The notes: generated by a model not told the origin, from the sequence alone. A DNA stretch of 62,137 nucleotides from Deltaproteobacteria bacterium (GCA_022843175.1 JALHOE010000026.1:1-62137); one strand, 5' to 3'; shown: positions 15,794 through 34,344, numbered from the stretch's first letter. Program-made: numbers and translations.

Positions 15794-16802
15794 AGCTCGT
15801 CGCGTAGAGCGGCACCGAGGAGCCCTCCGACGCGGTGAAGTACCCGCGGCCGTCCGCGCGATAGGTCACCGCCTCGCCCTGCCCCTCCTTGCCGACGGGC
15901 ACCTTCACCGGCAGCTTCGCGAGGCCGTCGCCGAGGCCGTCGGCGAGTGTGGTGAGCCGATACTCGAAGAGCGAGGAGTACGTGCGGAGCAGCGCGCGAT
16001 CGCCGCACGGCGACACGTCGCCGCCGGTGACCACGCCGTCGAGGCCGGCCGGGGTCGACACCCGCTTGAGAACCACCGCGGCGCCGGCGGTGAGCGGCGA
16101 CGGAAAGCGATAGACGCCGGGCGAGGCGCCCTTGGTGACGATCACGATCTCCCCGGTGGTCGGGTGGACGAGCAGCGCCTCGGCGTTCCACCTGCCGTCG
16201 GGATAGGTGAACGGGATCTTCTCCGCAGCGACCGAGCGCGCGGCGAACGGCTTCGGCTCGAGCTTCGGCTCGGGGATGCGGTAGAGCGCGTCGTTGGTGC
16301 GCGCCATGCCGTTGTCGCCGAAGTCGCCGACGTAGATGCACGAGCCGGCAGCGCACGGTCCGATGGCGATGTCCTCCCAGTCGACCGCCGTCGCGCCGGT
16401 CACCCGCAGCTCGCCGAGGATCGCGCCGGCGGTGTCGAGCGCGAACAGGCGCGCGCTGTCGCCCGAGTCGTTGTGCGTCCAGATCACGCCGGGGCTCGCC
16501 CTGCCGAGGGCGAGGCCGGAGATCTCGCTGACGCCCCCGCCCGAGATGGTGCCGGCGGAGCTCGGCTCGGTGTAGCTCGCGCAGCCGCAGGCCGCGGGCG
16601 TGTCGACGGAGCTGTCGACGGGGGCCGCGGTGTCGACGGCCGCGCCGGTGTCCCTCGACTCGGTCTCGGCGACCGCGCTGTCGGTGACGGCGCTGTCGGT
16701 GAAGGCGCCATCGGTGACGGCGCCGTCCGCGCTGGGCTCGTCGGGGGTCGTTTCGGTCGCGCCGCCACAGGCGACGAGCAGCACTACCAGCGAAAGCCTC
16801 AT
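15786..16802 (-). CDS. Lipoprotein with beta-propeller-like domain and repeat tether
   Basis: Encodes 338 residues. The signal MRLSLVVLLVACGG has a lipobox (LVAC). Residues 20-65 are an Asp/Thr/Ala/Val-rich tether with a degenerate pentapeptide repeat (VTDGA FTDSA VTDSA). The folded part begins with a Cys cluster and shows strands such as EISGLALGRASPGVIWTHND and VDWEDIAIG, typical of esterase-like or YncE-like beta-propellers that compare expected and observed values along a chain; no catalytic site is evident. Its ATG overlaps the stop of the upstream AlaX-like gene (ATGA at 16799-16802), although functional linkage with tRNA editing is not obvious. Confidence 0.75.
   Translation of the reverse strand: MRLSLVVLLVACGGATETTPDEPSADGAVTDGAFTDSAVTDSAVAETESRDTGAAVDTAAPVDSSVDTPAACGCASYTEPSSAGTISGGGVSEISGLALGRASPGVIWTHNDSGDSARLFALDTAGAILGELRVTGATAVDWEDIAIGPCAAGSCIYVGDFGDNGMARTNDALYRIPEPKLEPKPFAARSVAAEKIPFTYPDGRWNAEALLVHPTTGEIVIVTKGASPGVYRFPSPLTAGAAVVLKRVSTPAGLDGVVTGGDVSPCGDRALLRTYSSLFEYRLTTLADGLGDGLAKLPVKVPVGKEGQGEAVTYRADGRGYFTASEGSSVPLYATSCK
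16675..16728 (-). repeat. 15-bp coding minisatellite in the lipoprotein tether
   Basis: About 3.6 copies of a 15-bp unit (plus-strand form GCGCTGTCGGTGACG, with changes in later copies) lie in frame within the lipoprotein gene. They encode the pentapeptide repeat TDSAV/TDGAF. Such in-frame units can expand or contract without frameshift and change tether length. Confidence 0.65.
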
Positions 16803-17974
16803 CCGATCACCGTGACAAGGTCGACGTGCGCCGGCAAGCGCCCCTCGGCGCGTTCGGGTCTGCCGCCGCCCCGCCCGCCGTGCGCGCTCGCGACTTGCTT
16901 GAACCAGGCGCCGGCGTCGAACGAAGCGCCCGCCCCCCGCTCGATCACGAGCAGCCAGTCGCCGCTCGCATCGCGGGACGCGGCGAAGGCGATCACGTCG
17001 GGGCGCTTGGCCAGCGCACCGGTGAGCGTGCGGAGCGTCTGCAGATCGTCTCCCTCGCGGACGATGACGATCCGCGTGCCGAGCGGGTCGGCCGGGTGGG
17101 CTGCGAGCAGGCGCTCGGCGAGGAGCTGCATCAGCTCCCCGCGGGCGTGGGCGTAGGCCTCGGTCCTGGTCTTGAGGTCGGCGCGGAGCCTGGTCACCGC
17201 GGCCGGCACCTCGCCGATTCCGCAGGTGAACGAGCGCGCGAGCTCACGGAGCACGGAGTCCTTGGCCCTCGCGTCGGCGAGCGCGCGCCGGCCGGCGGCG
17301 AAGCTGACGCGAATCCCGCCCTTGTACTTCTCGACGCCGACGATCTTGATCGGGCCGATTTGGCCGCTGCGCTCGACGTGCGTGCCGCCGCACGGCGTGA
17401 AGTCGAAGCCCTCGACCTCGATCACCCGGACGCCGGTGGCGACCTTCGGCGCGCGGCGGAGCGGCATCTGCGCGAGCTCCTCGGGCCCGGGGAAGTGGGA
17501 GCGGACGGGCACGTCGCGGAGGACCAGGTCGTTGACGAGGTCCTCGGCGCGCGCGAGGGTCGCCTCGTCGAGCGCGCTCTGGTCGGTGTCGATCGTGCAG
17601 CTGCTCTCGCCGAGCCGCGCCGACACGGTCTCGGCCCGCGCGACCTCGATCAGCGCGCGGGAGAGCACGTGCTGGCCGGTGTGCTGGTACATGTGATCGC
17701 GGCGACGCTCGCGCTCGATCGTGCCGGTCACCGAGGTCCCGACCTCGAGCGGCTCCTCGACGAGGTGACGGATGCGGCCGTCGTCGTCGATTTGCACATC
17801 GGTCACGGCGACCACCTGTCGCCCGACGAAGAGCGCGCCGCGGTCGCCGAGCTGCCCCCCACCCTCCGGGTAGAACAGCGTGCGGTCGAGGATGACCGCG
17901 CCGGGCTCCACCGCGACGACGCGCGCCTCGAACGAGGTCCCGAAGGGCTCCTGCCAGTAGAGTTTCTCGGTCAC
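16799..17974 (-). CDS. AlaX-like alanyl-tRNA editing hydrolase with DHHA1-type tail
   Basis: A 391-residue protein related to the editing and C-Ala regions of alanyl-tRNA synthetase. The N-terminal part contains LFYPEGGGQLGDRG (typical of the AlaX/AlaRS second additional domain). The zinc-binding editing site is QHTGQH and later CGGTH. The C-terminal 140 residues end in GGRGGGRPERAEG, the DHHA1-type glycine motif of long AlaX proteins. It should deacylate mis-charged Ser-tRNA(Ala) or Gly-tRNA(Ala) in trans. No aminoacylation domain is present. GTG at 17974 is used because it precedes the conserved VTEKLYW start; upstream codons in this frame run into the neighbouring gene. Confidence 0.9.
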   Translation of the reverse strand: MTEKLYWQEPFGTSFEARVVAVEPGAVILDRTLFYPEGGGQLGDRGALFVGRQVVAVTDVQIDDDGRIRHLVEEPLEVGTSVTGTIERERRRDHMYQHTGQHVLSRALIEVARAETVSARLGESSCTIDTDQSALDEATLARAEDLVNDLVLRDVPVRSHFPGPEELAQMPLRRAPKVATGVRVIEVEGFDFTPCGGTHVERSGQIGPIKIVGVEKYKGGIRVSFAAGRRALADARAKDSVLRELARSFTCGIGEVPAAVTRLRADLKTRTEAYAHARGELMQLLAERLLAAHPADPLGTRIVIVREGDDLQTLRTLTGALAKRPDVIAFAASRDASGDWLLVIERGAGASFDAGAWFKQVASAHGGRGGGRPERAEGRLPAHVDLVTVIG

Positions 17975-17988
17975 GGGACCGAGCTTAG

Positions 17989-19578
17989 TCAGTTCTTGAA
18001 GCCGTCGATCCGGTACTTCGAGAGGACGGCCTTGTCGCCCTTGGCGATCATGAACACCTTCGCCGGAGCTGCGAGCGTGATCGAGCAGCGCTCGTTCGAG
18101 TTGTAGACGTACGACGGGCACTTGTAGGTCGACGTCGCGGTGGGGGACGCGCCGACGCGGAGGAAGAGGTCCGCGTCGCCGCCGGGCGAGGCGCCCTCGG
18201 GGGTCATCGCAAAGGTGTACTTACCCGCGGGGAGGATCTCGCTCTGGTAGGCGATCGCCTCGTTGTCGTTCACCGCGCCGGTGGTCTGGAAGACGGGCGC
18301 CGGGATGACCCGCGCCGGGGTGAAGACGTTGTCCTCTTCGCCGGTGGCGACGACGACCTGCACCGCGGCGATGTCGCGGAAGATGGCGCCGTAGCTCTTG
18401 GGCGCGGCCGGGTTGGCGAACGCCCTGATCAGGGCCATCGAGGCGTCCGACAGGTCGTTGAAGTACGCGGGCATCGCGTTGGTGAGGACGTCCATGTACT
18501 TCGTGCCCGACACGTCGTCGGCGTTGAGCTTCGCGCGCGTCGCGGTGAGCGTCTCGTCGAGGTAGGCAAAGGTGTCGCAGCCGTTCATGAAGAAGAGCTG
18601 CCACTTGCCGGGGAAGAACTTGCCCTTGGCGGACATCGAGCGGACGTTGGCGCCGAGGCCGGCGTGGCCGCTGTAGACGATGACGTCGGCTCCGGGAGCG
18701 AGCTCCGCGTAGCGCGCGTCGAACGCGGCGCCCGCGATGCGCGGGTTGTCGATGAGGAGCGCGACCATCTGCAGCTTGCGACCGCCGCCGAGGTCGGCGT
18801 TGAACGAGATGTCGTTGCCGCTGCCGGACTGCACGGCCTGCGGGAACTGCGCGCGGAACGCGCTGAGATACTCGTTGAAGGCCGCGATCCCCGCGTCGCT
18901 CGGCGAGGTGGCGCCGTCCTCGTATTTTCCGAAGATCGAGACGACGTTGAGCACGCCGTCCTCCCAGACCTTGTGGTACTCGGGGTACTTCGCGACGGTG
19001 TTCTGCGTGCTCACCTTGGCGGTGGCGGTGGCGACCATGATGTCGCCCGCGGCGAGGCTGCAGCCCGCGGCGCGCGGCCGATAGTGGTACCAGAAGTTGT
19101 TGATGTTCGAGTCGCCGCTGCCGTCGTCGCACGCGGTGCCGTAGGCCGAGAGGAAGGCGTTCTGGCCGATCTGGTCGATGCGCTTCGGGAGCTTGATGGT
19201 GTAGCTCGTGGGCAGGTTGGTCTTGCTGCCCCACGCGACCGGCAGCGTGGCGCGGTAGCGGATGCGATAGAGACCGCCCGAGTAGGTGCGGGTGACGTTG
19301 GTGAGGCGCACGCGATCGAGACGCGCGACGCCGGGCTCCTGGTTGAAGTGCCCGACCGTGTACATCAGCTGCGTGCGGATCTGATTCGTGCTGCTCGCGC
19401 TCGACGTGCTCGTGAGCTCGCCGTCGAACGTGAAGTCCATCAGCGTGGCGACGTCGCTCGTGAAGGGCTGCTCGTACTCGACGGCCTCCTCCTGGTCGTC
19501 GTCGTGCTCCGCAGACACAGCGCAACCATTCACGAAGGGGAAGGACGCGAGGGCGAGGGTGGCGAGCAGACGCTTCAT
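17989..19578 (-). CDS. Lipoprotein with caspase/gingipain-like (clan CD) fold and PPC domain
   Basis: Encodes 529 residues from ATG 19578, with a good ribosome site (GGAGC) eight bases upstream. The signal MKRLLATLALASFPFVNGC has a lipobox. The middle of the protein has two segments that look like the clan-CD peptidase dyad: VIVYSGHAGLG (His305) and LFFMNGCDTFAY (Cys334), each at the end of a hydrophobic strand. The 29-residue spacing is close to that of gingipain-type C25 peptidases. Residues about 445-525 (LPAGKYTFAM, GGDADLFLRVG, NERCSITL) match a bacterial pre-peptidase C-terminal domain. The His is followed by Ala rather than the usual Gly, so activity is uncertain. It could also be a non-peptidase relative. 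Confidence 0.65.
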   Translation of the reverse strand: MKRLLATLALASFPFVNGCAVSAEHDDDQEEAVEYEQPFTSDVATLMDFTFDGELTSTSSASSTNQIRTQLMYTVGHFNQEPGVARLDRVRLTNVTRTYSGGLYRIRYRATLPVAWGSKTNLPTSYTIKLPKRIDQIGQNAFLSAYGTACDDGSGDSNINNFWYHYRPRAAGCSLAAGDIMVATATAKVSTQNTVAKYPEYHKVWEDGVLNVVSIFGKYEDGATSPSDAGIAAFNEYLSAFRAQFPQAVQSGSGNDISFNADLGGGRKLQMVALLIDNPRIAGAAFDARYAELAPGADVIVYSGHAGLGANVRSMSAKGKFFPGKWQLFFMNGCDTFAYLDETLTATRAKLNADDVSGTKYMDVLTNAMPAYFNDLSDASMALIRAFANPAAPKSYGAIFRDIAAVQVVVATGEEDNVFTPARVIPAPVFQTTGAVNDNEAIAYQSEILPAGKYTFAMTPEGASPGGDADLFLRVGASPTATSTYKCPSYVYNSNERCSITLAAPAKVFMIAKGDKAVLSKYRIDGFKN

Positions 19579-19755: not shown

Positions 19756-21288
19756 ATGGCGAAACGCATCGCGCTGTTCTGGCCCGGAGACGCACGCAGC
19801 AAACCCAACGAGCTGGCGATGCCCGCGATCACCGCGGCGACCGAGCAGCTCGAGCGCGCGTTCAAGAAGCTCGGGCGCGCCACGTATCGAGTCGAGGGCG
19901 TGCTCGCGAAGCCGCACGAGGCGATCGAGAAGCTCGGGCCGATCGACGATCCGATGGTCGGGGTATGCACCCACTGGCTCTACGCGCCGCACACCTGCGA
20001 CGGCGTCGTGGGCAAGGACAACCCGCTGCTCCTCGCGAGCAACTTCTCCGGTCAGTGGCCGGGGCTCGTCGGTCTGCTCAACACCGGTGCGTCGCTCGAG
20101 TCGCTCAACCGCCGGTTCTCACGCGCGTGGACCGACGCGCCCGACATGAGCAGCGACGCGCAGTTCATGGAGCGCCTCGACGAGTGGTGCACGACCGGCC
20201 GCATCCAATACGGCGAGGAGCAGGTGCACTACCACGCGCCCGTCGACGAAGAGGCGTCGAACCTGGCGCGCGAGGTGGCCGAGGAGATCCGCAGGAAGCG
20301 GATCCTGCTCCTCATGTTCGGCGACACCTCGATGGGCATGATCAACGGCTACTTCGGCCCGCGCCTGCTCAATCGCCACGGCTTCACCGAGCACAAGATC
20401 GACCAGGCGTGGATCCTCGATCGCGGCAAGCGCATCGAGCAGAAGCGGATCGACGACGCGTTCAAGTTCGTGATCGATCGCGGCCTGCAGTTCCACTGGG
20501 GCGAGGGCCCGTCGAGCGCGGGCGCGGGCGGCGCGGGCGACTTCGACGAGAACGCGAGCAAGGAGCAGCTCCGCGACTACCTCGTGGCGCTGGACCTCAT
20601 CGCCGAGTTCAAGGCCGACTGCCTCGGCTGGCAGTACCAGCTCGGCCTCATCCCGCTGCGCCCGCCGAGCGATCTCGCCGAGGGCCTGCTCAACTCCAAG
20701 TGCCGCCCCGAATCGAACGGCCAGCCGTTCATCTGCTCGACCGAGGCCGACCAGGGCAACGCGGTGCCGATGGAGATGCTCAAGCGGCTCTTCCAGAAGA
20801 AGGGCCTGCACGAGGCGGTGATGTTCCACGACGTGCGCTGGGGCGCCGAGCACGAGGGGCGCTTCCTGTGGGTGCTCCTCAACTCCGGCTCGTGCGGGGC
20901 GTACGCCTTCAACCACGATCCGGACTCGCTGAGGGGCGCGCACTCGTGGCGCCAGCCGCGCCTCTACTTCCCGACGCCCGGCGGCTCGTTCGCCGGCGAG
21001 TCGCTCCCCGGCAAGATGACCTGGGCGCGCGCGTACATTCGAAACGACGAGCTGTGGATGGACATCGGCCGCGGCGAGGTCGTGAAGCTCCCGCCCGCGG
21101 TGCGCGATCAGTGGTGGAACGGCACGACGCCCGAGTGGCCGTTCATGGCGGCGGACATGGGCATCACCCGCGACACGCTGATGGCGCACTACCTGTCGAA
21201 CCACGTGGCCGTGGCCTACGGCGACGTGTTCGGCGAGATGGTCGCGCTGTCACGCGAGCTCGGGTTCAAGGTGCGCGTGCTCGGGTAG
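19756..21288 (+). CDS. L-fucose/D-arabinose-isomerase-like protein
   Basis: A 510-residue protein. The N-terminus MAKRIALFWPGDARSKPNEL and segments such as CTHWLYAP, NFSGQWPGLVGLLNT, LLLMFGDTSMGM and CSTEADQGNAVPMEML follow the overall pattern of the L-fucose isomerase family, whose members convert aldoses to ketoses with a divalent metal; FucI-type enzymes also turn D-arabinose into D-ribulose. STEADQGNA is a plausible metal-site segment. Nearby lie a pentulose kinase and a ribose-type ABC transporter, which fits an aldopentose-to-pentulose role. It is slightly shorter than E. coli FucI. The start at 19756 follows a promoter-sized gap of 177 bp from the divergent lipoprotein gene. Confidence 0.75.
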   Translation: MAKRIALFWPGDARSKPNELAMPAITAATEQLERAFKKLGRATYRVEGVLAKPHEAIEKLGPIDDPMVGVCTHWLYAPHTCDGVVGKDNPLLLASNFSGQWPGLVGLLNTGASLESLNRRFSRAWTDAPDMSSDAQFMERLDEWCTTGRIQYGEEQVHYHAPVDEEASNLAREVAEEIRRKRILLLMFGDTSMGMINGYFGPRLLNRHGFTEHKIDQAWILDRGKRIEQKRIDDAFKFVIDRGLQFHWGEGPSSAGAGGAGDFDENASKEQLRDYLVALDLIAEFKADCLGWQYQLGLIPLRPPSDLAEGLLNSKCRPESNGQPFICSTEADQGNAVPMEMLKRLFQKKGLHEAVMFHDVRWGAEHEGRFLWVLLNSGSCGAYAFNHDPDSLRGAHSWRQPRLYFPTPGGSFAGESLPGKMTWARAYIRNDELWMDIGRGEVVKLPPAVRDQWWNGTTPEWPFMAADMGITRDTLMAHYLSNHVAVAYGDVFGEMVALSRELGFKVRVLG

Positions 21289-21303
21289 GCCCCCCCGAGG
21301 TGT

Positions 21304-22866
21304 TCAGCTCGGTGCCTCGGGGAGGAGCGGCGGCTCGCGCGGCGGCGGCAGCGCGGCGTTGAGCCGCTCGAGCAGCTCGCGTCGTACGCGCGCGTGCGCC
21401 GGATCGCTCCACAGGTTGCGGTGCATGTGCGGATCGTTGCGTCGGTCGTAGAGCTCGCCCTCGGTGCCGTCGTACTGCGGGATGACGCCCTTGGACCCCA
21501 TCAGCCACTCGAGGAACGGCCAGCGGCCGCCCCTGCTGCCGTCGGTGCGACGGTACGCGGTCGCGATCCAGCGGTCGTCGACGAGCGTGTCGAGGTGCAT
21601 GCCGATCTCCCGGAACTGGCTGTCCCAGGTGACCACCACCGGATCGCGCGATTCGCTGGGTTCGGTCGGCAGCGCACGGCCCTGCGCCCACGGCGGCACC
21701 TCGACGTCGGCGATCGCGCAGAACGTCGGCACCAGGTCGACCATGCTCACCGGCGCGTCGATCTCGAGCGCGGGGGTCGGCGCGGCCGGGCGCCAGATCA
21801 GCGGGATGCGCATCAACGAGTCGACGTGGTACGGCCCCTTGAAGAGCAGCCCGAAGTCGCCCTGCAGCTCGCCGTGATCGGTGGTGAAGATCACGTCGGT
21901 CCGCGCGAGGAGCCCGCGCCGCTCGAGGTGGCCGAGGATGTCGCCGAGCGCCTCGTCGACGAGCTCGTTCTCGGCGTGAATCTTGGCGATGATCTCGCGC
22001 AGTTGATCGTCCCCGAGCGCGGAGGGCACGAAGCCCGCGGGGCCGCCCTCGGCGTTGGCGAAGCGACCGAGGTACCAGTCGAGCCAATGCCGCGGCTTGC
22101 CCTCGAGGATCTCGATCGCCCGCGCGCGCGAGCCCGGGTGACCCGGCGGCAGCGGGATGTCGGCGCGCGCGTGCCGAATCGCCTCGAGCGGCGGATCCCA
22201 CGGGTGGTGCGGATCGGGGAAGCTGACCCAGAGGAAGAAGTCGTCGTCGTCCGCCACGGTCTCGAGCCACGCCCGGGTGCGCTCCGCGACCCACGCCGAG
22301 TGATACAGCTCCTTCGGGATCGGGTTGTTCGCGGTCTCCGGGGCGCCGGTGTCGCCGCCCGGAACGCCGATGAGGATCGGCGCGAAGCCGAGGACGTGCT
22401 CGGGGTGCTTCTCCTGGAGCCATCGCGCGTAGTGCGACGCGCCGGCCGGTCCGTGGAAGGAGAGCTCGACGTGGTCGAACCCGAACCACGGCCCGTACGA
22501 GCCCTCGCTCGACATGCGGTTCTGGGTGAACCGCTGGCGGAGATCGACCGCGGGCTCGAAGTGCGCCTTGCCGATCAGCGCGGTGCGATAGCCCGCCTTT
22601 CGCTTCAGCCAGTGGGTGATGCCGGTGCCGTCGTCCGGGAGCGCGATGCCGTTGGCGACGACGCCGTGGGTCCGCGGGTGGAGCCCGGTGAACATGGTGG
22701 ACCGCGACGGCATGCACACGACGTTGTTGGTGAACGCGTGCCGATAGCGGATGCCCTCGCGCGCCAGGCGGTCGCCATGGGGCGTGCGCGCGAACGCGTT
22801 GCCGGCGCAGCCGAGCGCGTCGAAGCGCTGCTGGTCGGTGGTGACGAACAGGATGTTGCGTCCCAT
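21304..22866 (-). CDS. Sulfatase (S1 type, formylglycine-dependent)
   Basis: Encodes 520 residues. It begins MGRNILFVTTDQQRFDALGC, with the N-terminal metal-binding DQ, and contains the formylglycine signature C-M-P-S-R followed by STMFTGLHPRTHG. The Cys form is converted to formylglycine by an FGE-type enzyme. Other type I sulfatase blocks are present: GYRTALIGKAH, TTDHGE (metal-binding) and HPWDPP-like loops. There is no signal peptide, so it should act in the cytoplasm. It is translationally coupled to the 74-codon gene upstream: the ribosome site GGAGG overlaps that gene's stop, seven bases before the ATG. The location between an isomerase and a pentulose kinase suggests a sulfated sugar or alcohol as substrate; this is inference. 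Confidence 0.88.
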   Translation of the reverse strand: MGRNILFVTTDQQRFDALGCAGNAFARTPHGDRLAREGIRYRHAFTNNVVCMPSRSTMFTGLHPRTHGVVANGIALPDDGTGITHWLKRKAGYRTALIGKAHFEPAVDLRQRFTQNRMSSEGSYGPWFGFDHVELSFHGPAGASHYARWLQEKHPEHVLGFAPILIGVPGGDTGAPETANNPIPKELYHSAWVAERTRAWLETVADDDDFFLWVSFPDPHHPWDPPLEAIRHARADIPLPPGHPGSRARAIEILEGKPRHWLDWYLGRFANAEGGPAGFVPSALGDDQLREIIAKIHAENELVDEALGDILGHLERRGLLARTDVIFTTDHGELQGDFGLLFKGPYHVDSLMRIPLIWRPAAPTPALEIDAPVSMVDLVPTFCAIADVEVPPWAQGRALPTEPSESRDPVVVTWDSQFREIGMHLDTLVDDRWIATAYRRTDGSRGGRWPFLEWLMGSKGVIPQYDGTEGELYDRRNDPHMHRNLWSDPAHARVRRELLERLNAALPPPREPPLLPEAPS

Positions 22867-22870
22867 CGCG

Positions 22871-23095
22871 CTACCTCCGCGTCATCCGCGCGAGCCGCCC
22901 CTCGATCCGGGCGGCGCGCGCCGCGAGGTCGTCGATCGCCTGACGATCCGCGAGCCCGAGCGCCGCGATGACGGCGTGCCGCGCGCGGGCGAGCGACGCG
23001 CGCATGCGGGTGCCGCCGCGGAAGAACGGCAGCATGACCGTCCAATAGCGCTTCTGATCGACGCGGAACGGAAGGCCTCGGCGGCGAGTCGTCAT
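22871..23095 (-). CDS. Small basic protein upstream of the sulfatase
   Basis: A 74-residue, Arg-rich protein (MTTRRRGLPFRVDQKRYWTV...) with a hydrophobic patch (residues about 18-26) and a helical C-terminal half (AIDDLAARAARIEGRLARM) that could form a short coiled coil. I do not recognise a family. Its stop lies four bases before the sulfatase ATG and its last codons carry the sulfatase ribosome site, so it is probably a genuine first gene of that operon or a translational-coupling leader. Longer upstream extensions overlap the kinase gene on the other strand. Confidence 0.6.
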   Translation of the reverse strand: MTTRRRGLPFRVDQKRYWTVMLPFFRGGTRMRASLARARHAVIAALGLADRQAIDDLAARAARIEGRLARMTRR

Positions 23096-23171
23096 CCGGC
23101 GTGTGAGTGTACCCTGCTCCGCTCGGGGCTCGCTCCTCGGTGAACGAAGGCGAGAAACCGTCCTTTCCGCG

Positions 23172-23187
23172 ATATCCTCTCGGATAT
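23172..23187 (+). promoter_or_regulatory. Inverted repeat overlapping the pentulose kinase start codon
   Basis: ATATCC, a four-base spacer (TCTC), then GGATAT forms a perfect 6-bp inverted repeat, and the second arm includes the first two bases of the kinase ATG (23186). There is no strong Shine-Dalgarno sequence just upstream. It may be a repressor operator covering the start or an mRNA hairpin that masks initiation; both are inferences from position. Confidence 0.4.
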
Positions 23188-24778
23188 GTACCTCGGCATC
23201 GACGTCGGCACCGGGAGCGCGCGCGCGGGGATCTTCGACGCTCGGGGCGAGATGCGGGGGATGGGCGTGTCGCCAGTCCAGCTCGGCCGGCCGCAGCACG
23301 ACTTCGTCGAGCAGTCGTCCGACGACATCTGGCGCGCGTGCTGCGAGGCCACGCGCGGGGCGCTGCAGCAGGCCGGCGTCGACGAGATCGAGGGTATCGG
23401 CTTCGACGCGACGTGCTCGCTCGTCGCGCTCGACGCGGACGACAAACCGGTCACCGTCAGCCCCACCGGCGACGACACCTGGAACGTCATCGTGTGGATG
23501 GACCACCGGGCCATCGCGCAGGCCGAGCGGATCAACGCCGGTAAGCACGAGGTCTTGAAGTACGTCGGCGGCGCGATCTCGCCCGAGATGGAGACGCCCA
23601 AGCTCCTGTGGCTCAAGGAGCACGCGCCCCGAACCTGGAAGCGCACGGCGCGGTTCTTCGATCTACCCGACTTCCTCGTCTATCGCGCTACGGGCAACGA
23701 CGTGCGCTCGCTCTGCACCACCGTCTGCAAGTGGACCTATCTCGGCCACGAGGGGCGGTGGGACGAGGCGTACTTCCGCGCGGTCGGCCTCGGAGATCTG
23801 GCCGACGAGGGCTTCGCGCGCATCGGCACCCGGGTGCGCCCGATGGGCGAGCGTGCTGGCACGCTCGGTGAGCACGCCGCCCGCGAGCTGGGCCTGCGCG
23901 CGGGCATCCCCGTGGGCGTGTCGATCATCGACGCCCACGCCGGCGGGATCGGCATTCTCGGCGCCGCGCCCGATACCCCGCTCGATCGGCGCGTCGCGCT
24001 GATCGGCGGCACCTCGACCTGCCACATGGCGGTCTCCAGTGAGCCGCGCTTCGTCCCCGGCGTGTGGGGCCCCTACGCCTCGGCGATGGTGCCGGGGTTC
24101 TGGCTCACCGAGGGCGGGCAATCGGCGACCGGCGCGCTCATCGATCACGTCATCTTCAGCCACGCGCGGGGCGCAGAGCTCCGCGACGAGGCCCGACGCC
24201 GCGGCACCACCGTGTACGCGATCCTCAACGAGCACCTCGACAAGATGAAGGCGCCCTTCCCGGCCGCGCTCGCGCGAGACGTGCACGTGCTCCCCGACCA
24301 CCACGGCAACCGCTCGCCGCGCGCCGACGCCACGCTGCGCGGGATGATCTCCGGCCTCACGCTGGCCGACGACATCGACACGCTCGCGGTGCACTACCTG
24401 GCGACGATTCAGGCGATCGCCCACGGCACCCGGCACGTGCTCGAGGCGATGAACGCGAATGGTTACTCGATCGAGACGCTGATCGCGTCCGGCGGCGACA
24501 CCAAGAACCCGGTGTTCCTCCGCGAGCACGCCGACATCACCGGCTGCAAAATCGTGCTCCCTCACGCGAGCGAGGGCGTGCTCCTCGGCTCGGCGATCCT
24601 CGGCGCCGTCGCGGCGGGAGCGCACCCGTCCATCGAACAGGCGATGGGCGCGATGACCAGCGCCGCGCGCACGCTCGAGCCGGCGGGCGGGGAGATCGCT
24701 GCCTTCCACGACAAGAAGCACCGCGTCTTCCTCCGCATGTACGAGGACCAGATGGCCTATCGGCAGCTGATGGCATGA
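23186..24778 (+). CDS. FGGY-family pentulose kinase (D-ribulokinase type)
   Basis: A 530-residue FGGY carbohydrate kinase. The N-terminus [18 protein letters not shown] is the phosphate-1 loop. The stretches [47 protein letters not shown] and [15 protein letters not shown] are characteristic of the FGGY pentulose kinase subgroup that includes D-ribulokinases. The C-terminal ATP-binding part includes [22 protein letters not shown]. It should phosphorylate D-ribulose (or a similar ketopentose) to the 5-phosphate. It leads an operon whose next gene overlaps its stop (ATGA at 24775-24778). The isomerase upstream could supply the ketose. Substrate specificity is inferred from subgroup resemblance. 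Confidence 0.88.
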
Positions 24779-26877
24779 GGCTCGCGGTCCTCCTGCTGCT
24801 CGCATGCAGCGGCGTGCGCGAGCCCGAACCGCGGGCCGACGGGGGACCACCCGACCTCGGGACGACGTGCTCACCGCAGCACGACGCAGTCGGACCTGCG
24901 TGCGTCCCGCGCTTCGACGCCTGCGAGCGCGACGCGCTCCCGAAGCTCGGGGGAGGCTGCGAGGTCGTCGGCGATCCCGGTGCCGTGACGGTGAGCGAGC
25001 CGACCGAGACCTGCGGCACGCCGCCGAGCGACGCGGTCTTCGTCGACGGGAGCTATGGCGGACCGAGCGACGGAAGCAGCGCCCGCCCCTTTCAAACCGT
25101 GGCCGCAGCGCTCGCGGTCGCATCCACGACGGTGTGGATCGGGGCCGGCGTGTACCGCGAGGATCTGCTCCCCGACAAACCCATCGCGCTCGCGGCCGCG
25201 TGTCCGTCGAAGGTCACGATCCAGGGCGTGGCCGCGCCCGCCGCGATCACGGTGCGCGCCGGCGCCGTTCGCGGGCTGTCGGTCACCGGTCCGCGCCGCG
25301 GCATCACCGTCGACGGCGCGAAGGGCGCGCTCGTCGAGGACGTGCGGGTGCACGACACCGGTGAGCTCGCGATCGCGGCGCGCAACGGCAGCGTCGTGAC
25401 GATTCGGCGCGCGGTGATCGAGCGGGCCACCGAGGCCGGGATCGCCGCCGCGGGTGGGACAACGACCCTCGCCGACGTCGTCGTCCGCGACATCCGCGCC
25501 GCTGCGACGCTCCCCGGCGACGGGATCCTGGCGACCGGCGACAACGCGACCCGTGCGGCGGGTGCTCTGACGGTGACGCGCGCGCTGATCGAACGCGTCG
25601 CCGGCGGGGGCGTCTCGGTGCAGGGCTCCGCGGTCGACGTCAGCGGCTCGATCGTTCGCCGCGCGGCGTTCGGTGTCGGCCACGAGCGGTTCGTCATCGG
25701 CACCCCGTCACGGATCAAGGTCTCTTCGAGCCTGATCGAGGACACCACCGGCCAGGGCATCGTCGCCAACCAGACCGCGCTCGAGCTCGACGGCGTTACC
25801 GTCCGGCGCGCGACCCTCGGCGTCGCGATCTTCGGCCCCCATGCGGGGTTTCTCCCCAGCCTGCGCCGCGTGACGGTGGAGCACGCGCGCCGCCGCGGGA
25901 TCAGCGTCGTCGACGGTGGGGCGACGCTCGAGTCGGTGCTCGTACGCGGCACGCAGATCGACAACGGCGAGGGCTGCGGCGTGTGCGCGTCGCCGAGCGA
26001 CAAGGGCCTCGCTCCCCGGCTGCGCGCCACGCGCGTGGTCCTCGTCGACAACGCCATCGGCGGGCTCTCCCTCCTCGACGCCGACGCCGAGGTGCTCCGC
26101 GCCCTCATCGCGCGCAACGGCACTCTCGGCGTGAGCGTCGCGAACGGCGCGGCCAAGCTCGGAGAGCTGATCGTGCGCGACACCCGCTCGCGCGCGGACG
26201 GCACCCGCGGCGACGGCATCCTCGCCGCCTATCTGCCGGGCAAGAAGGTCACCCTCACGCTCGAGGACGCGCTCATCGACGGGAACCGCAACATCGGCGT
26301 CGCGATCTTCGGCGACGCCCGCGTCTCGCGCGCGATCGTGCGGGGCACCACGCCGCGGCCGGGCGGCCTCTACGGCTTCGGCCTGACCGCGATCCCCCCG
26401 CTCCGCGACCCGCGCCCCGGAAACCTCGAGCTCGACAACCTGCTCGTCGAGCGGAACGTCTCGGCGGGGATTGTCCTCGGGCAGAGCGATCTGGTCCTCG
26501 AGCGCGCCGTGGTGCGCGACACGGCGACAGACGCGGAGGGCTCGTTCGGCGACGGCATCGCCCTCACCGCGGGCTATCGCAACGCCATGGGCACCGTGGT
26601 CGTGCCGTCGCGCGCCACGATCGCGTCGGCGATCGTCGAGCGCAACGCACGCGCGGGAATCTCGGTCCTCGGTAGCGCGCTCGTCCTCACCAACTCCCGG
26701 CTCCGCTGCAACGCCGTCGATCTCGACGTCGAGGAGCTCTTCGACACCGCCACCGGCGCGCGCAACGCGGTCTCGATCGCGGATCGCGGCGGCAACGACT
26801 GCTCCTGCGGTCCCGGCGCCGCGCAGGAATGCCGCGCGCAAACAACGGGTCTCCTCCCGGTCCCGCCGGCCGAGTAG
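24775..26877 (+). CDS. Lipoprotein with right-handed parallel beta-helix
   Basis: Encodes 700 residues from the ATG overlapping the kinase stop. The signal [13 protein letters not shown] has a lipobox (LLAC). A Cys-rich N-terminal region (residues 30-85) precedes [20 protein letters not shown], the usual entry into DUF1565-like parallel beta-helices. About 500 residues then repeat hydrophobic turns such as [19 protein letters not shown] and GVAIFG, typical of pectate-lyase-like folds. No lyase catalytic residues can be assigned. Embedded in a sugar kinase/transporter operon, it may bind or process an extracellular polysaccharide. Such beta-helix lipoproteins are also common elsewhere in myxobacterial genomes, so the link may be positional only. 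Confidence 0.8.
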
Positions 26878-26887
26878 TATCCCGCGC

Positions 26888-27853
26888 ATGCTCAACCGAC
26901 GTGCGCTCCTCGCCAGCGTCGCCGTGGTGGCGGCGTTCGGCTGCAAGAAGGGCGGAGGCAGCGGCGCCCTCAAGATCGCAGTCATCCCCAAGGGCACGAC
27001 CCACGAGTTCTGGAAGGCCGTCCACGCCGGCGCCGAGAAGGCGGGCAAGGAGGCCAACGTCGAGATCATCTGGAAGGGGCCCCTCAAGGAGGACGACCTC
27101 AAGGCGCAGATCGACGTCGTGCAGAGCTTCACCGCGCAGGGGGTGAGCGGCATCGTCCTCGCGCCGCTGTCGGACAAGGCGCTCGTCGGCTCGGTCAAGG
27201 CGGCCGTCGACCAGAAGATCCCCGTCGTGATCTTCGACTCCGACCTCGCCGGCCAGGACCACGCAAGCTTCGTCGCGACCGACAACCGCGCCGCCGGCCG
27301 CGTCGCCGGCGACGAGATGGTTCGGCTCCTCGGCGGCAAGGGCAAGGTCGCGGTGCTCCGCTACCAAGAGGGCTCGGCGAGCACCAACCACCGCGAAGAG
27401 GGCTTCCTCGAGGCTGCGCGCAAGGGCGGCCTCGAGATCGTCAGCGACAACCAGTACGGCGGCGCCACCACCGAGTCCGCGCTGAGCAAGAGCGAGAGCC
27501 TCCTGTCCGCGCAGAACGCGGCGAGCGGCGGCGTGAACGGCGTCTTCGCGCCCAACGAGTCCACCACGTTCGGAATGCTGCTCGCGCTGCAGAAGAGCGG
27601 GCTCGCCGGCAAGCTGAAGTTCCTCGGCTTCGACGCGTCCGACAAGCTCCTCGACGGCCTGAAGAAGGGCGAGCTCGACGGCTTGGTCGTGCAGGATCCG
27701 TTCAAGATCGGCTACCTCGCCGTCAAGACGATGGCCGCCCACCTCCGCAAGGAGCCGGTGGAGAAGCGCGTCGACACCGGCGCCAAGCTGGTCACCAAGC
27801 AGAACCTCGACACGCCCGAGATCCAAACGCTCCTTCACCCGCCGATCCAATGA
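26888..27853 (+). CDS. Sugar ABC transporter substrate-binding lipoprotein (RbsB-like)
   Basis: A 321-residue periplasmic binding protein of the ribose/galactose type. The signal MLNRRALLASVAVVAAFGC ends in a lipobox (Cys19). Typical blocks are IAVIPKGTTHEFWKAVHAGAEKA, QGVSGIVLAPLSD, VVIFDSDLAG, SFVATDNRAAGRVAGDEM and GVFAPNESTTFGMLLAL. It would capture a pentose or related sugar in the periplasm and deliver it to the permease encoded downstream. The start follows the beta-helix gene by ten bases and the stop overlaps the next ATG. Confidence 0.9.
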   Translation: MLNRRALLASVAVVAAFGCKKGGGSGALKIAVIPKGTTHEFWKAVHAGAEKAGKEANVEIIWKGPLKEDDLKAQIDVVQSFTAQGVSGIVLAPLSDKALVGSVKAAVDQKIPVVIFDSDLAGQDHASFVATDNRAAGRVAGDEMVRLLGGKGKVAVLRYQEGSASTNHREEGFLEAARKGGLEIVSDNQYGGATTESALSKSESLLSAQNAASGGVNGVFAPNESTTFGMLLALQKSGLAGKLKFLGFDASDKLLDGLKKGELDGLVVQDPFKIGYLAVKTMAAHLRKEPVEKRVDTGAKLVTKQNLDTPEIQTLLHPPIQ

Positions 27854-28527
27854 AGCGACTCGCCGCGCTCGCCTCGGTCCTGCTCCTCGCCTCCACCGCC
27901 CACGCCGAGGAGGACGGGCAGGTGTGGTTCGCGCCGATCGTGCAGACCCCGATCGTCGGCAAGCTGCGGAGCTGGCTCGAGCTCCAGGCGCGCTTCAAGG
28001 ACGAGGGCAACCAGCTCGACCGCCTGATCGTGCGGCCCGCGCTCAACTACCCACTCGGAGCCGGGTTCACGGCGTGGGTGGGCTACGGCTACATGCCGTT
28101 CACGCGACTCGTCAACGGCGAGAGCAAGCTCTACCCCGAGCACCGTGGGTGGCAGCAGCTCACGCACGTCGGCGGCGCGCCCGAGCGCGGCCAGCTGCAG
28201 AACCGCCTCCGCTTCGAGCAGCGGTTCATCGACAACGTCGACACCGCGGCCCTTCGTCTCCGCTACATGGCGCGCCTCGTCCACCGCCCGAGGTCGTGGG
28301 GCGGCTTCGGCTACGCGCTGTGGGACGAGATCTTCGTCAACCTCAACTCGCCGAGCGGCACCCTCAAGTCGGGCTTCGACCAGAACCGCTTCGCGTTCGG
28401 GCTGCAGTACGCGGTGTCGAAGGCGCTCGTCTTCGAGCCGTCCTACGTGGCGATCACCCAGTTCCGCCCCAACCGCGAGGTCTTGATCGGTCACACTGCG
28501 CTCCTGTTCGTGTGGATCACGCTGTGA
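27850..28527 (+). CDS. DUF2490-like outer-membrane protein within the ABC operon
   Basis: A 225-residue protein with a cleavable signal (MKRLAALASVLLLASTAHA). The mature part alternates aromatic/hydrophobic and polar residues (SWLELQARFKDEGNQLDRL, RYMARLVHRPRSWGGFGY, LLFVWITL) in the manner of a small beta-barrel; the order and WxxP-like strands fit DUF2490. Both ends overlap neighbouring ABC transporter genes (ATGA at 27850, GTGA at 28524), so it is co-translated with the binding protein and the ATPase. It may be a pore or outer-membrane component serving the same substrate. The family call is by resemblance. Confidence 0.7.
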   Translation: MKRLAALASVLLLASTAHAEEDGQVWFAPIVQTPIVGKLRSWLELQARFKDEGNQLDRLIVRPALNYPLGAGFTAWVGYGYMPFTRLVNGESKLYPEHRGWQQLTHVGGAPERGQLQNRLRFEQRFIDNVDTAALRLRYMARLVHRPRSWGGFGYALWDEIFVNLNSPSGTLKSGFDQNRFAFGLQYAVSKALVFEPSYVAITQFRPNREVLIGHTALLFVWITL

Positions 28528-29984
28528 GGCTGGCGATCGCCGGCCTGCGCAAGGCGTTCGACGCGACCCTCGCGCTCGCCGGCGTCGATCTGTCGGTCGC
28601 GCCCGGCGAGGTGCACGCGGTCCTCGGCGAGAACGGCGCGGGCAAGTCCACCCTGATGGGCGTGCTCGCCGGCGCGGTCGCCCGCGACGCGGGCGAGATC
28701 ACGCTCGACGACAAACCCTACGCGCCGCGCTCCCCGCGGGAGGCTCGCGAGCTCGGGGTCGCGATCGTCCACCAGGAGCTGTCGCTCTGCCTCCACCTCA
28801 CGGTCGCGGAGAACATCCTCCTCGGCGTCGAGCCCGCGCGCGGCGGCGTGATCGATCGCCGCCGATCGCTCGAGCTGGTGACCGCCGCGCTCGCCCGCAT
28901 CGACGCCGGCGTCGCCCCCGACGACCGCGTCGGGGAGCTGCCGCCGGCCAAACAGCAGCTGGTCGAGATCGCGCGGACGGTCGCCACCGGTCTGCCGCGC
29001 GTGCTCATCCTCGACGAGCCGACGTCGAGCCTCGGCGCTGCCGACGCCGCGAAGCTCTTCGCGCTCGTCCGCGAGCTCCGCGCCGCGGGTGTATCGATTC
29101 TTTATGTTTCGCACTTCCTCGAGGAGGTGATGGCGCTCTGCGACCGCTACACCGTCCTCCGCGACGGGGCCTCGGTCGGTGCGGGCGCCATCGCCGAGGT
29201 GAAGCTCGACGCGCTGATCACGCAGATGGCCGGTCGCAACGTCGAGCGTCTGTTCAGCCGGTCTCGGCGCGCTCCCGGCGACGTCGTCCTCGAGGTGCGC
29301 TCGCTCTCCGGGCGGCGCGCGCCGATCGACGCCTCGCTGAAGCTGCACCGCGGCGAGGTCCTCGGCGTCTCCGGGCTCGTCGGCTCCGGCCGCACCGAGC
29401 TGCTCCGCGCGATCTTCGGCCTCGACCCCGTGGTGCGCGGCGAGGTGCGGGTCGCCGCGTGGACCGGCCCGCGCGCGCCCCGCGACGCGCTCGATCGCGG
29501 CGTTGGGCTCCTCAGCGAGGACCGCAAGCGCGAGGGCCTCGCGCTCAACCGCTCGGTCGCCGAGAACATCACGCTCTCTGCCCTCCCGCGCCTGGTCTCG
29601 GCGCGCGCGCAGCACGCCGCGGCCGAGGCGCGCGTGAAGCAGCTCGGCATCCGCGTCGCCGACGTCGATGCGCCGGTGGCGCGCCTCTCGGGCGGCAACC
29701 AGCAGAAGGTCGCGCTCGCGCGCCTGCTCCACCACGACGTCGACGTGCTCCTCCTCGACGAGCCGACCCGCGGGATCGACGTGCGGAGCAAGAGCGAGAT
29801 CTACGCAACGATCGACGCCCTCGCGGCCAGGGGCAAGTCGGTGCTCGTGGTGTCGAGCTGGCTCCCCGAGCTGCTCGGCCTCTGCGATCGGATCGCGGTG
29901 ATGCGCCGGGGTAGCCTCGGCGTGGCGCGCCCCACCGAGGACTGGACCGAGGAGTCGCTCCTTCGCGAAGCGCTCGGCGCTTGA
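28524..29984 (+). CDS. Sugar ABC transporter ATP-binding protein (RbsA-like, two ABC domains)
   Basis: Encodes 486 residues from a GTG overlapping the previous stop. The first ABC domain has Walker A GENGAGKST (35-43), a divergent signature region (ELPPAKQQLVEIAR) and Walker B VLILDEPTSSL. The second has the degenerate P-loop region SGLVGSGRTELLRAIFG, as in RbsA/MglA proteins, then LSGGNQQKVALAR and VLLLDEPTRGIDV. This duplication is characteristic of carbohydrate uptake transporter-2 ATPases. It powers import by the permease encoded 33 bp downstream. Confidence 0.93.
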   Translation: MRLAIAGLRKAFDATLALAGVDLSVAPGEVHAVLGENGAGKSTLMGVLAGAVARDAGEITLDDKPYAPRSPREARELGVAIVHQELSLCLHLTVAENILLGVEPARGGVIDRRRSLELVTAALARIDAGVAPDDRVGELPPAKQQLVEIARTVATGLPRVLILDEPTSSLGAADAAKLFALVRELRAAGVSILYVSHFLEEVMALCDRYTVLRDGASVGAGAIAEVKLDALITQMAGRNVERLFSRSRRAPGDVVLEVRSLSGRRAPIDASLKLHRGEVLGVSGLVGSGRTELLRAIFGLDPVVRGEVRVAAWTGPRAPRDALDRGVGLLSEDRKREGLALNRSVAENITLSALPRLVSARAQHAAAEARVKQLGIRVADVDAPVARLSGGNQQKVALARLLHHDVDVLLLDEPTRGIDVRSKSEIYATIDALAARGKSVLVVSSWLPELLGLCDRIAVMRRGSLGVARPTEDWTEESLLREALGA

Positions 29985-30017
29985 TATGGATGACAACGTG
30001 CTTCCCATGATCGGCCC

Positions 30018-30980
30018 ATGAAGCTCCGCCGCGCCCTCAACGTGCCGTGGGTCGGGCCGCTCCTGGCGCTGATCGCGGTCTACGTCCTGTTCGTCGTCCT
30101 GCGGCCGGACACCTTCGCCCGCACCGCGAACCTGGTGACGATGGCGCGGCAGACGGTCGTGGTCGGCGTCGCCACCGTCGGGATGACGCTCGTGATCGTG
30201 CACGGCGGGATCGACCTCTCGGTCGGCTCCTCGGTCGCGCTCACCAGCGTCGTGGTCGCGAAGCTGCTGCAGGGCGGGCACTCGCCGCTGACGGCGTGCC
30301 TCGCGGGGGTGCTCGCGGCGGGGGTCTGCGGCGCGCTCAACGGCGCGCTCATCGCGCGCGCGAAGATGCTGCCGTTCATCGTCACCCTCGGCACGATGAG
30401 CGCGCTCCGCGGGGCGGCGAAGGGGCTCGCCAACGAGCAGAAGATCGACGCGCCGGCCGGCGGCCTCGACGCGCTGCTCTCGCCGCTCCCGCCGTCGCGC
30501 GCGTGGATGCTCGTGCCGCCCGGCGTGTGGATCGCGATCGCGATCGCCATCCTGTTCGCGTGGATCCTCCGCGCCACGCGGTTTGGCCGGCATATCTACG
30601 CGATCGGCTCCAACGAGCAGACCGCTCGGTTGTGCGGCGTGCGGGTCGAGCGGGTGAAGGTCTCCGTCTACGCGCTCGCCGGTCTGCTCGCCGGTGTCTC
30701 CGGCGTGATGTCGTTCAGCAACCTGACGGTGGGCGATCCGACGACCGCGATGGGTCTCGAGCTCGACGTCATCGCCGCGGTCGTGATCGGCGGCGGCTCG
30801 CTGTCGGGCGGCGAGGGTTCGCTCCTCGGGGCCATCTTCGGAGCCTGCCTGATGACGGTGGTGAAGACCGGCTCGACCTACGTGGGGCTGCCGAACTGGG
30901 TCCAGGAAATCCTCACCGGCGCGATCATCATCGTCGCCGTCGGCCTCGACCGCCTGCGCCAGAAGCGCACCGCCCGCTGA
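30018..30980 (+). CDS. Sugar ABC transporter permease (RbsC-like)
   Basis: A 320-residue polytopic membrane protein of the ribose/xylose/arabinose permease type. Conserved segments include VGVATVGMTLVIVHGGIDLSVGS, ALNGALIARAKMLPFIVTLGTM, GRHIYAIGSNEQTARLCGV and a GGGSLSGGEGSLLGAIFGA motif near the end. About 8-10 membrane spans are visible. It is the last gene of the operon and is followed directly by a GC-rich hairpin at 30989-31008. Together with the binding protein and ATPase it forms a complete CUT2 importer. Confidence 0.93.
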   Translation: MKLRRALNVPWVGPLLALIAVYVLFVVLRPDTFARTANLVTMARQTVVVGVATVGMTLVIVHGGIDLSVGSSVALTSVVVAKLLQGGHSPLTACLAGVLAAGVCGALNGALIARAKMLPFIVTLGTMSALRGAAKGLANEQKIDAPAGGLDALLSPLPPSRAWMLVPPGVWIAIAIAILFAWILRATRFGRHIYAIGSNEQTARLCGVRVERVKVSVYALAGLLAGVSGVMSFSNLTVGDPTTAMGLELDVIAAVVIGGGSLSGGEGSLLGAIFGACLMTVVKTGSTYVGLPNWVQEILTGAIIIVAVGLDRLRQKRTAR

Positions 30981-33441: not shown

Positions 33442-34344
33442 ATGCGTATCGAGCTTAAAGACGTCATCAAGAGCCCCGATGTGGAGGATCCGGTCAACCT
33501 CCACGTCCATCGTCCGCTCCAGCTCGCCCTGGTCCGTCCGCTCGTCCGCACCCCGATCACGCCCAATCAGGTCACCTTCCTCTCGCTCTGCGCCGGCCTC
33601 GCGTCCGCCGCGCTGATCGTGAAGGGCACCCCGGTGGCGTTGGTGCTCGGCGCCGGCCTCCTGTTCTCCTCGGCGATCCTCGACGGAGTCGACGGGATGA
33701 TCGCCCGCCTCAAGAAGACCTCGAGCGAGACGGGCCACGCGATCGATGGCGCCGCCGACTACGCGGTCAACATCGCCACCACGGCGGCCGCGGTCTTCTA
33801 CCTCACGCAGCACGGCTACAGCCTGCCGGTCGCCGTCGGCCTCGGGCTCGGCGCGCACCTCGCGTGGGCGCAGCACCTGATGCTCTACGACTTCCACTGC
33901 GCCACGTATCTCCGCTTCCTCACCGGCGGAAAGCACCAGGGCGGCGACTGGGACCGCGGCAAGGCGCTCCTCCAGAAGCTCCGCGATCAGAACGCGTCGC
34001 TGTTCTCGCGCGCGGTGGTCACGGTCTACGTCTGGCAGCTCGGCAACCGCCAGCGCTTCCTCGAGCGCGTGAACCCGGTGGCCGCCGGCTACCGCGAGCT
34101 CGAGGCCGATCGCGAGACCGGCGCCGCCTACGTCGCGCGCCACCGCGCGACGATGCGCGCCTGGGCCTTCCTCGGCAACGCGCCGCACATGGACCTCATG
34201 TCCCTCGCCGCGGCGACGGGGCGCTTCGACCTCTACTTCGTTTTCCGCATCGTCGCGTTCACGGCCCTCGCCGTGATCCTGGCGGTGTGGGAGCGTCGCG
34301 TCAGCGCCACCCCGCTGCTCGCCGACGAGGCGGCGGCGGCGTGA
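33442..34344 (+). CDS. CDP-alcohol phosphatidyltransferase family membrane enzyme
   Basis: A 300-residue integral membrane protein. The family signature DG-x2-AR-x8-G-x3-D-x3-D is perfect: DGMIARLKKTSSETGHAIDG followed by AAD (about residues 80-102). These enzymes move an alcohol phosphate or diacylglycerol phosphate from a CDP-activated donor to an alcohol, making phospholipids or inositol-phosphate lipids. Five or more hydrophobic segments are visible. The extended C-terminal portion (about 160-260) between membrane spans is less usual for the family. The stop overlaps the GTG of the next gene (GTGA at 34341-34344), so both are one operon. Confidence 0.9.
   Translation: MRIELKDVIKSPDVEDPVNLHVHRPLQLALVRPLVRTPITPNQVTFLSLCAGLASAALIVKGTPVALVLGAGLLFSSAILDGVDGMIARLKKTSSETGHAIDGAADYAVNIATTAAAVFYLTQHGYSLPVAVGLGLGAHLAWAQHLMLYDFHCATYLRFLTGGKHQGGDWDRGKALLQKLRDQNASLFSRAVVTVYVWQLGNRQRFLERVNPVAAGYRELEADRETGAAYVARHRATMRAWAFLGNAPHMDLMSLAAATGRFDLYFVFRIVAFTALAVILAVWERRVSATPLLADEAAAA

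Follow-up and report, generated by a model that had tools for sequence, protein, structure and literature searches.

A putative D-arabinose utilisation locus with a FucI-superfamily isomerase in a myxobacterial genome

Introduction

In mycobacteria, D-arabinose is the sugar that typifies arabinogalactan and lipoarabinomannan. The D-arabinan-cleaving enzymes have been known since 2023, with a downstream isomerase and kinase that were putative. Members of glycoside hydrolase families GH183, GH172 and GH116 liberate D-arabinose from mycobacterial arabinan, and the D-arabinan loci described in the same studies include a putative isomerase and kinase (PMC10509167, PMC10115798). A route from D-arabinose to D-ribulose-5-phosphate has been proposed for these loci, which belong to Microbacterium arabinogalactanolyticum and Dysgonomonas gadei (PMC10509167, PMC10115798). 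In Escherichia coli, the kinase DarK, inserted in the fuc locus, is needed for D-arabinose metabolism (PMC12307932). The fuc locus of E. coli BL21 has a kinase, a LacI regulator and a CUT2 importer inserted beside fucI, and from its position there we infer that this kinase is DarK.

Here we describe a locus on contig 26 (JALHOE010000026.1) of a 9.75 Mb draft genome of a Deltaproteobacteria bacterium whose isomerase groups with those of Polyangia, Myxococcota. The contig was analysed over its whole length of 62,137 nt, and this stretch is referred to below as the window. We put the probability that it forms an operon for the use of D-arabinose at about 0.72; its conserved cassette would yield D-ribulose-5-phosphate, and D-arabinan is the presumed source of the sugar.

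Results and Discussion

Gene content of the locus

Nine open reading frames make up the locus, with a third-position GC of 0.91-0.97, as in real genes, in a contig stretch of 70% GC. A sulfatase gene and a 74-aa ORF lie on the minus strand between the isomerase and kinase genes, and in this genome they set the isomerase apart from the transcription unit of the kinase; the other seven genes are on the plus strand. Four-base overlaps link the kinase and lipoprotein genes, the binding-protein and DUF2490 genes, and the DUF2490 and ATPase genes. A sequence-only reading of this DNA had named or implied the same nine genes, and each was found in its place with its family as guessed, although the minus strand of the sulfatase and the 74-aa ORF had been left unstated. 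The cassette is flanked by genes for an alanyl-tRNA synthetase-like editing protein (16799-18121, minus strand) and a CDP-alcohol phosphatidyltransferase (33442-34344, plus strand), both unrelated to it.

Isomerase

The isomerase gene (19756-21288, plus strand) encodes 510 aa with a sole Pfam match from sequence, PF02952 (Fucose_iso_C, 54 bits), which is found in 46/46 members of the family; a profile search of the isomerase of this locus detected neither N1 nor N2 domains. Scores against the FucI equivalogs NF008220 and TIGR01089 were 27.2 and 19.3 bits, against cut-offs of 775 and 850 bits, respectively. An AlphaFold model built from 46 natural relatives (mean pLDDT 86) has L-fucose isomerase FucI as its nearest fold (Z 36.6, rmsd 2.4 over 335 residues), with a Z of 35.6 to the D-arabinose isomerase of Bacillus pallidus and of about 26-30 to L-arabinose isomerases, the structurally aligned part being residues 164-510. 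The metal ligands of FucI, E337, D361 and H528, correspond here to E330, D359 and H483, which are invariant in 80 sequences. The protein is a member of the FucI-AraA superfamily and belongs to a distinct 510-aa clade.

FucI-type isomerases take several aldoses, including L-fucose, D-arabinose and D-altrose, and for this reason the fold leaves the substrate unfixed. We propose that the enzyme is a D-arabinose isomerase that converts D-arabinose to D-ribulose. The family is uncharacterised; that a clade of the FucI superfamily is assignable to D-arabinose isomerase is new here. In a quick tree of the clade, the plasmid-borne 'fucose isomerases' of Deinococcus, Rhizobiaceae, Klebsiella and Proteus, full-length homologues with 30-34% identity, form an outside group, a separate clade on a very long branch.

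Kinase and CUT2 importer

The FGGY pentulose kinase (23186-24778, plus strand) matches TIGR01315 with 650.7 bits (cut-off 408.7) and shares 46% identity along its whole length with the FGGY kinase from the E. coli BL21 fuc/dar cluster, compared with 27% to AraB and 23% to FucK. It carries the segment TCSLV at residue 76, common to BL21 DarK and two plasmid kinases and replaced in AraB; this segment has reportedly been noted for D-ribulokinases. On the strength of these sequence relationships we propose that it is a DarK-type D-ribulokinase, phosphorylating D-ribulose to D-ribulose-5-phosphate. The genome encodes one other FGGY kinase.

The three importer genes encode a sugar-binding lipoprotein (26888-27853, plus strand; PF13407, lipobox AFGC), an ATPase with two ABC domains (28524-29984, plus strand; PF00005 twice) and a permease (30018-30980, plus strand; PF02653), the components by which a CUT2 importer is recognised. 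Their identities to the counterparts in the BL21 dar cluster are 37% (binding protein), 41% (ATPase) and 42% (permease), and all subunits score below every one of the CUT2 equivalog cut-offs listed (ribose, arabinose, xylose, allose and others). PF13407 has no second match in the genome; its one match, the binding protein, is proposed to bind D-arabinose (or D-ribulose).

Another possible substrate of the same enzymes is L-fucose, or else a different 6-deoxy or rare aldose; the isomerase would then form the ketose, to be phosphorylated by a promiscuous pentulose/deoxyketose kinase. L-fucose and D-arabinose have the same configuration at C2-C4, the isomerase fold is closest to L-fucose isomerase (Z 36.6), and elsewhere the genome encodes a single class II aldolase domain, which is of the rhamnulose-phosphate aldolase/dehydrogenase type. 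We nevertheless consider this very unlikely, as the kinase is DarK-like with only 23% identity to FucK, the FucI equivalog score is 27 against a 775-bit cut-off, no aldolase or mutarotase gene recurs among the clusters of isomerase neighbours, and the hydrolases that do recur there belong to D-arabinofuranosidase families (see below).

Conservation of the cassette

The isomerase, the DarK-type D-ribulokinase and the three CUT2 importer genes form a conserved five-gene cassette. With the isomerase as query, GTDB genomes yielded 166 confirmed relatives, of which 80, with 68-87% identity over the full length, were kept for locus counts; they come from about ten phyla, including Myxococcota, Planctomycetota, Acidobacteriota and Gemmatimonadota. 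About one third of the positions in the alignment of the 80 sequences are invariant, and no gene of the cassette is better conserved than the isomerase. A kinase homologue is present in 46/80 loci (59-76% identity, with a single outlier at 28%), and in 34/80 it begins no more than 200 nt downstream of the isomerase, on the same strand. All parts of a CUT2 importer are present in 26 loci, and 21 have a close binding protein (at least 48% identity). In one myxococcotal locus (L073) the five genes follow one another directly and in the same order as here, from isomerase through kinase, binding protein and ATPase to permease. Since the cassette stands elsewhere without the extra genes, as in L073, the locus described here is best seen as the cassette with genes added. 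The earlier proposal that the isomerase, D-ribulokinase and complete ribose-type importer belong together is thus borne out by recurrence across phyla, and comparison of gene order upheld this unit but not the sulfatase, lipoprotein and DUF2490 genes.

An alternative is that D-ribulose, ribitol-derived ribulose or another pentulose is imported directly, with the kinase as the main enzyme and the isomerase serving a side substrate. Citrobacter rodentium offers a precedent, a CUT2 importer with a D-ribulose-specific D-ribulokinase, but the isomerase of that system is a dispensable enzyme of another, KpsF-like type (PMC12307932). The kinase family and the CUT2 set fit direct import equally well; it is the isomerase that tells against it, being the most conserved gene, occurring without a detected kinase homologue in 34/80 loci (some of these cut short) and having neighbours from D-arabinofuranosidase families. 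Direct import therefore seems unlikely, and import of the aldose D-arabinose is preferred.

The isomerase is patchily distributed, being found in 14 of 56 relatives from the same order and in 16 of 377 genomes of the phylum, every one from that order. Minicystis rosea (L026) and Polyangium are among the cultured bacteria that carry it. A relative from the same genus (L025:13335-16487) retains the isomerase, the adjacent kinase and the binding protein, and homologues of the ATPase and permease are absent from the 7 kb after its binding protein; its importer may be broken or split.

Several loci depart from this arrangement. A second, distant CUT2 lineage lies directly upstream of the isomerase in six loci (L067, L059, L065, L088, L095 and L097), with binding proteins 28-31% identical to the one here, and L067 carries both lineages. 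In three Rhodospirillales loci (L077, L080 and L084) a divergent gene of the dihydrodipicolinate-synthase family adjoins the isomerase on its upstream side, hinting at other uses of the isomerase. A D-apiose route, which would also employ an isomerase and a pentulose kinase, was considered and set aside; no transketolase-like neighbour was found among the annotated neighbour clusters.

Additional genes at the locus

The sulfatase (21304-22866, minus strand; 520 aa, PF00884) is of the formylglycine type, with the motif C51-M-P-S-R, and has no visible signal peptide. The 74-aa ORF upstream of it (22871-23095, minus strand) has no family match in Pfam or NCBIfam and is plausibly a gene by its composition (third-position GC 0.91). 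A similar sulfatase, with 29% identity, occurs in 1/80 isomerase loci. Within the order, relatives were found in two other genomes of about 56, on contigs other than that of the isomerase and with no homologue of the 74-aa ORF beside them, and the same-genus relative L025 is without a sulfatase. The sulfatase is outside the conserved cassette, and together with the 74-aa ORF it appears to be a separate opposite-strand insertion between the isomerase and kinase genes.

The right-handed beta-helix lipoprotein (24775-26877, plus strand; PF13229, lipobox LLAC) and the DUF2490 protein (27850-28527, plus strand; PF10677, 146.7 bits), which has a signal peptide and is probably an outer-membrane barrel, have a detectable homologue in 0/80 isomerase loci. 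L025 encodes a DUF2490 homologue with 53% identity on a different contig. The lipoprotein is a lineage-specific addition, as is the position of the DUF2490 gene between the binding-protein and ATPase genes. The 4-base overlaps make co-expression of both with their neighbours likely in this strain, and a private outer-membrane role is therefore possible, in which the two proteins may serve binding or passage at the outer membrane.

The sequence-only reading had cast these genes as functional partners that take a pentose, either sulfated or released from a polysaccharide, from the cell surface to D-ribulose-5-phosphate. The coupling it noted is real: the lipoprotein and DUF2490 genes overlap the kinase, binding-protein and ATPase genes, and the exported nature of both products would suit uptake. 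That coupling is not conserved with the cassette, and nor is any of the three genes. The sulfatase and its 74-residue partner are not supported as pathway members, lying on the minus strand, with no signal peptide visible in the sulfatase and with its relatives elsewhere in other genomes; and the lipoprotein and DUF2490 protein, with no homologue detected at the 80 loci, do not belong to a conserved route. That reading had expected the extra genes to accompany the transporter in relatives, and the sulfatase and lipoprotein do not. We regard the full route as highly improbable. Nothing points to a sulfated substrate, and the sulfated-pentose model was rejected as a conserved feature, given the single 29% sulfatase among 80 loci and the unlinked relatives in the order. 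A sulfoquinovose-type pathway was set aside, with no supporting neighbour.

D-arabinan hydrolases near the isomerase and in the genome

ORFs near the isomerase were clustered over the 80 loci, and two recurring hydrolase families emerged in other phyla, assigned by Pfam to DUF2961/GH172 (PF11175) and GH116 (PF04685). One or both are present in 13/80 loci, from Acidobacteriota, Gemmatimonadota, Planctomycetota and Raymondbacteria, all outside Myxococcota. The nearest named solved structures of these hydrolases include an exo-alpha-D-arabinofuranosidase (8ic8) and an exo-beta-D-arabinofuranosidase (8ic6). GH172 was found at 11 loci, whereas its copy number in the genomes would predict 0.33 genes there, a more than 30-fold enrichment (Poisson P 1e-13). 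This expectation is based on 49 genomes with 99 GH172 matches, which include all GH172-bearing loci; the 31 genomes outside this set have no GH172 near the isomerase, and the expectation over all 80 would be somewhat higher, still below 1-2. The estimate is conservative because split matches slightly inflate the 99. Two Planctomycetota loci (L069:7202-9800 and L094) combine isomerase and GH172 with an importer of the CUT1 type (SBP_bac_1), as would suit the uptake of oligosaccharides.

The genome described here encodes a GH183 (DUF4185) protein that is the best match among 56 relatives (E 1e-76). It is just under 400 aa long with a lipoprotein-like start, and is related to the endo-alpha-D-arabinanase 8hhv. 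Its gene (G000:C44:37436-38341, in L127) lies among genes of a housekeeping type, for an AIR synthase family protein, a signal peptidase and arginyl-tRNA synthetase, and is not in a sugar locus. There are also three divergent GH172 genes that keep the GTG-x-E motif; identity to an isomerase-linked GH172 is about 26%, and another has a difructose dianhydride hydrolase as its best PDB match. A profile search found no GH116 in the genome. The locus itself does not qualify as a D-arabinan utilisation locus, as no GH183, GH172 or GH116 gene lies in the 62,137-nt window and the GH183 and GH172 genes are unlinked to the cassette.

Across the order, GH172 accompanies the isomerase in 11/14 genomes compared with 12/42 genomes without it (P 0.0015), but P is about 0.16 when only genomes of at least 6 or at least 8 Mb are counted, and since significance is lost without the small genomes this co-occurrence is given little weight and was set aside as evidence. 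GH183 matches over the cut-off occur in 4/14 isomerase-bearing genomes and 6/42 others (P 0.25), and strong full-length matches in 3/14 and 1/42 (P 0.04). Because only the strong full-length matches differ, GH183 is used as evidence for this genome alone.

The linked GH172 and GH116 genes elsewhere, together with the GH183 and GH172 genes of this genome, make D-arabinose a well supported substrate and a polysaccharide source plausible, in agreement with the D-arabinose use and polysaccharide-derived pentose suggested earlier from the sequence.

Proposed pathway

The probable source of the sugar is D-arabinofuranose polymers of other bacteria, such as the arabinogalactan and lipoarabinomannan of mycolic-acid actinobacteria. 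These would be cut outside the cell by the GH183 and GH172 enzymes encoded elsewhere in the genome, if they have the predicted activities and act together with the cassette. The binding lipoprotein, ATPase and permease would bring in the free pentose, most likely D-arabinose, which the isomerase, using a metal bound by E330, D359 and H483, is predicted to convert to D-ribulose. The DarK-type FGGY kinase would then form D-ribulose-5-phosphate, which could enter the pentose phosphate pathway with no further dedicated enzymes.

A broader scheme combines three proposals: that the 510-aa clade is a widespread, dedicated D-arabinose isomerase family not assigned before, that the large-genome Polyangiales which carry it feed on the D-arabinan of actinobacterial prey by way of GH183 and GH172, and that the DUF2490 protein and lipoprotein give this strain a private uptake step at the outer membrane. 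Taken whole, we offer it tentatively and think it somewhat doubtful. A literature search on myxobacteria and arabinogalactan found nothing relevant. The likely D-arabinan route in myxobacteria is new here. The findings suggest that some myxobacteria are able to consume actinobacterial cell walls. As a sequence-defined marker, the isomerase clade would serve to detect the breakdown of D-arabinose in Myxococcota, Planctomycetota, Acidobacteriota and Gemmatimonadota. The 'fucose isomerase' labels on such proteins would also be corrected.

Comparison with known systems

The plasmid-borne 'fucose isomerase' loci resemble the locus described here in that a DarK-like FGGY kinase adjoins the isomerase in two of the three inspected, but they differ in their transporter types and in having a protein of the dihydrodipicolinate-synthase family, also in two of the three. 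A gene set close to IS elements on the conjugative IncFIB plasmid pRHBSTW-00867_2 of Klebsiella pneumoniae (L148:6340-14241) is possibly a mobile pentose-type pathway. Its kinase has 61% identity to that of the BL21 fuc locus, and its FucI-like isomerase is distant (30%); the set also encodes a LacI regulator, an MFS transporter, a sialidase-like protein and a protein of the dihydrodipicolinate-synthase family.

The Rbl system of Citrobacter rodentium likewise pairs a CUT2 importer with a dedicated FGGY D-ribulokinase, but it is without a FucI-type isomerase and the ketose itself is imported (PMC12307932). The fuc-dar cluster of E. coli B has, as here, a FucI-type isomerase beside a DarK-type D-ribulokinase and the binding protein, permease and ATPase of a CUT2 importer. 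Unlike the locus described here, it has a LacI regulator and borrows the canonical 591-aa FucI, which is 25% identical to the present isomerase in the C-terminal half only. Arabinan hydrolases are not linked to the E. coli B cluster. The loci of M. arabinogalactanolyticum (PMC10509167) and D. gadei (PMC10115798) combine an isomerase, a kinase and a sugar importer with GH183, GH172 and GH116. Compared with these, the hydrolases here are unlinked and GH116 is missing, and the importer is of the CUT2 type for a monosaccharide, whereas theirs is presumed to carry oligosaccharides.
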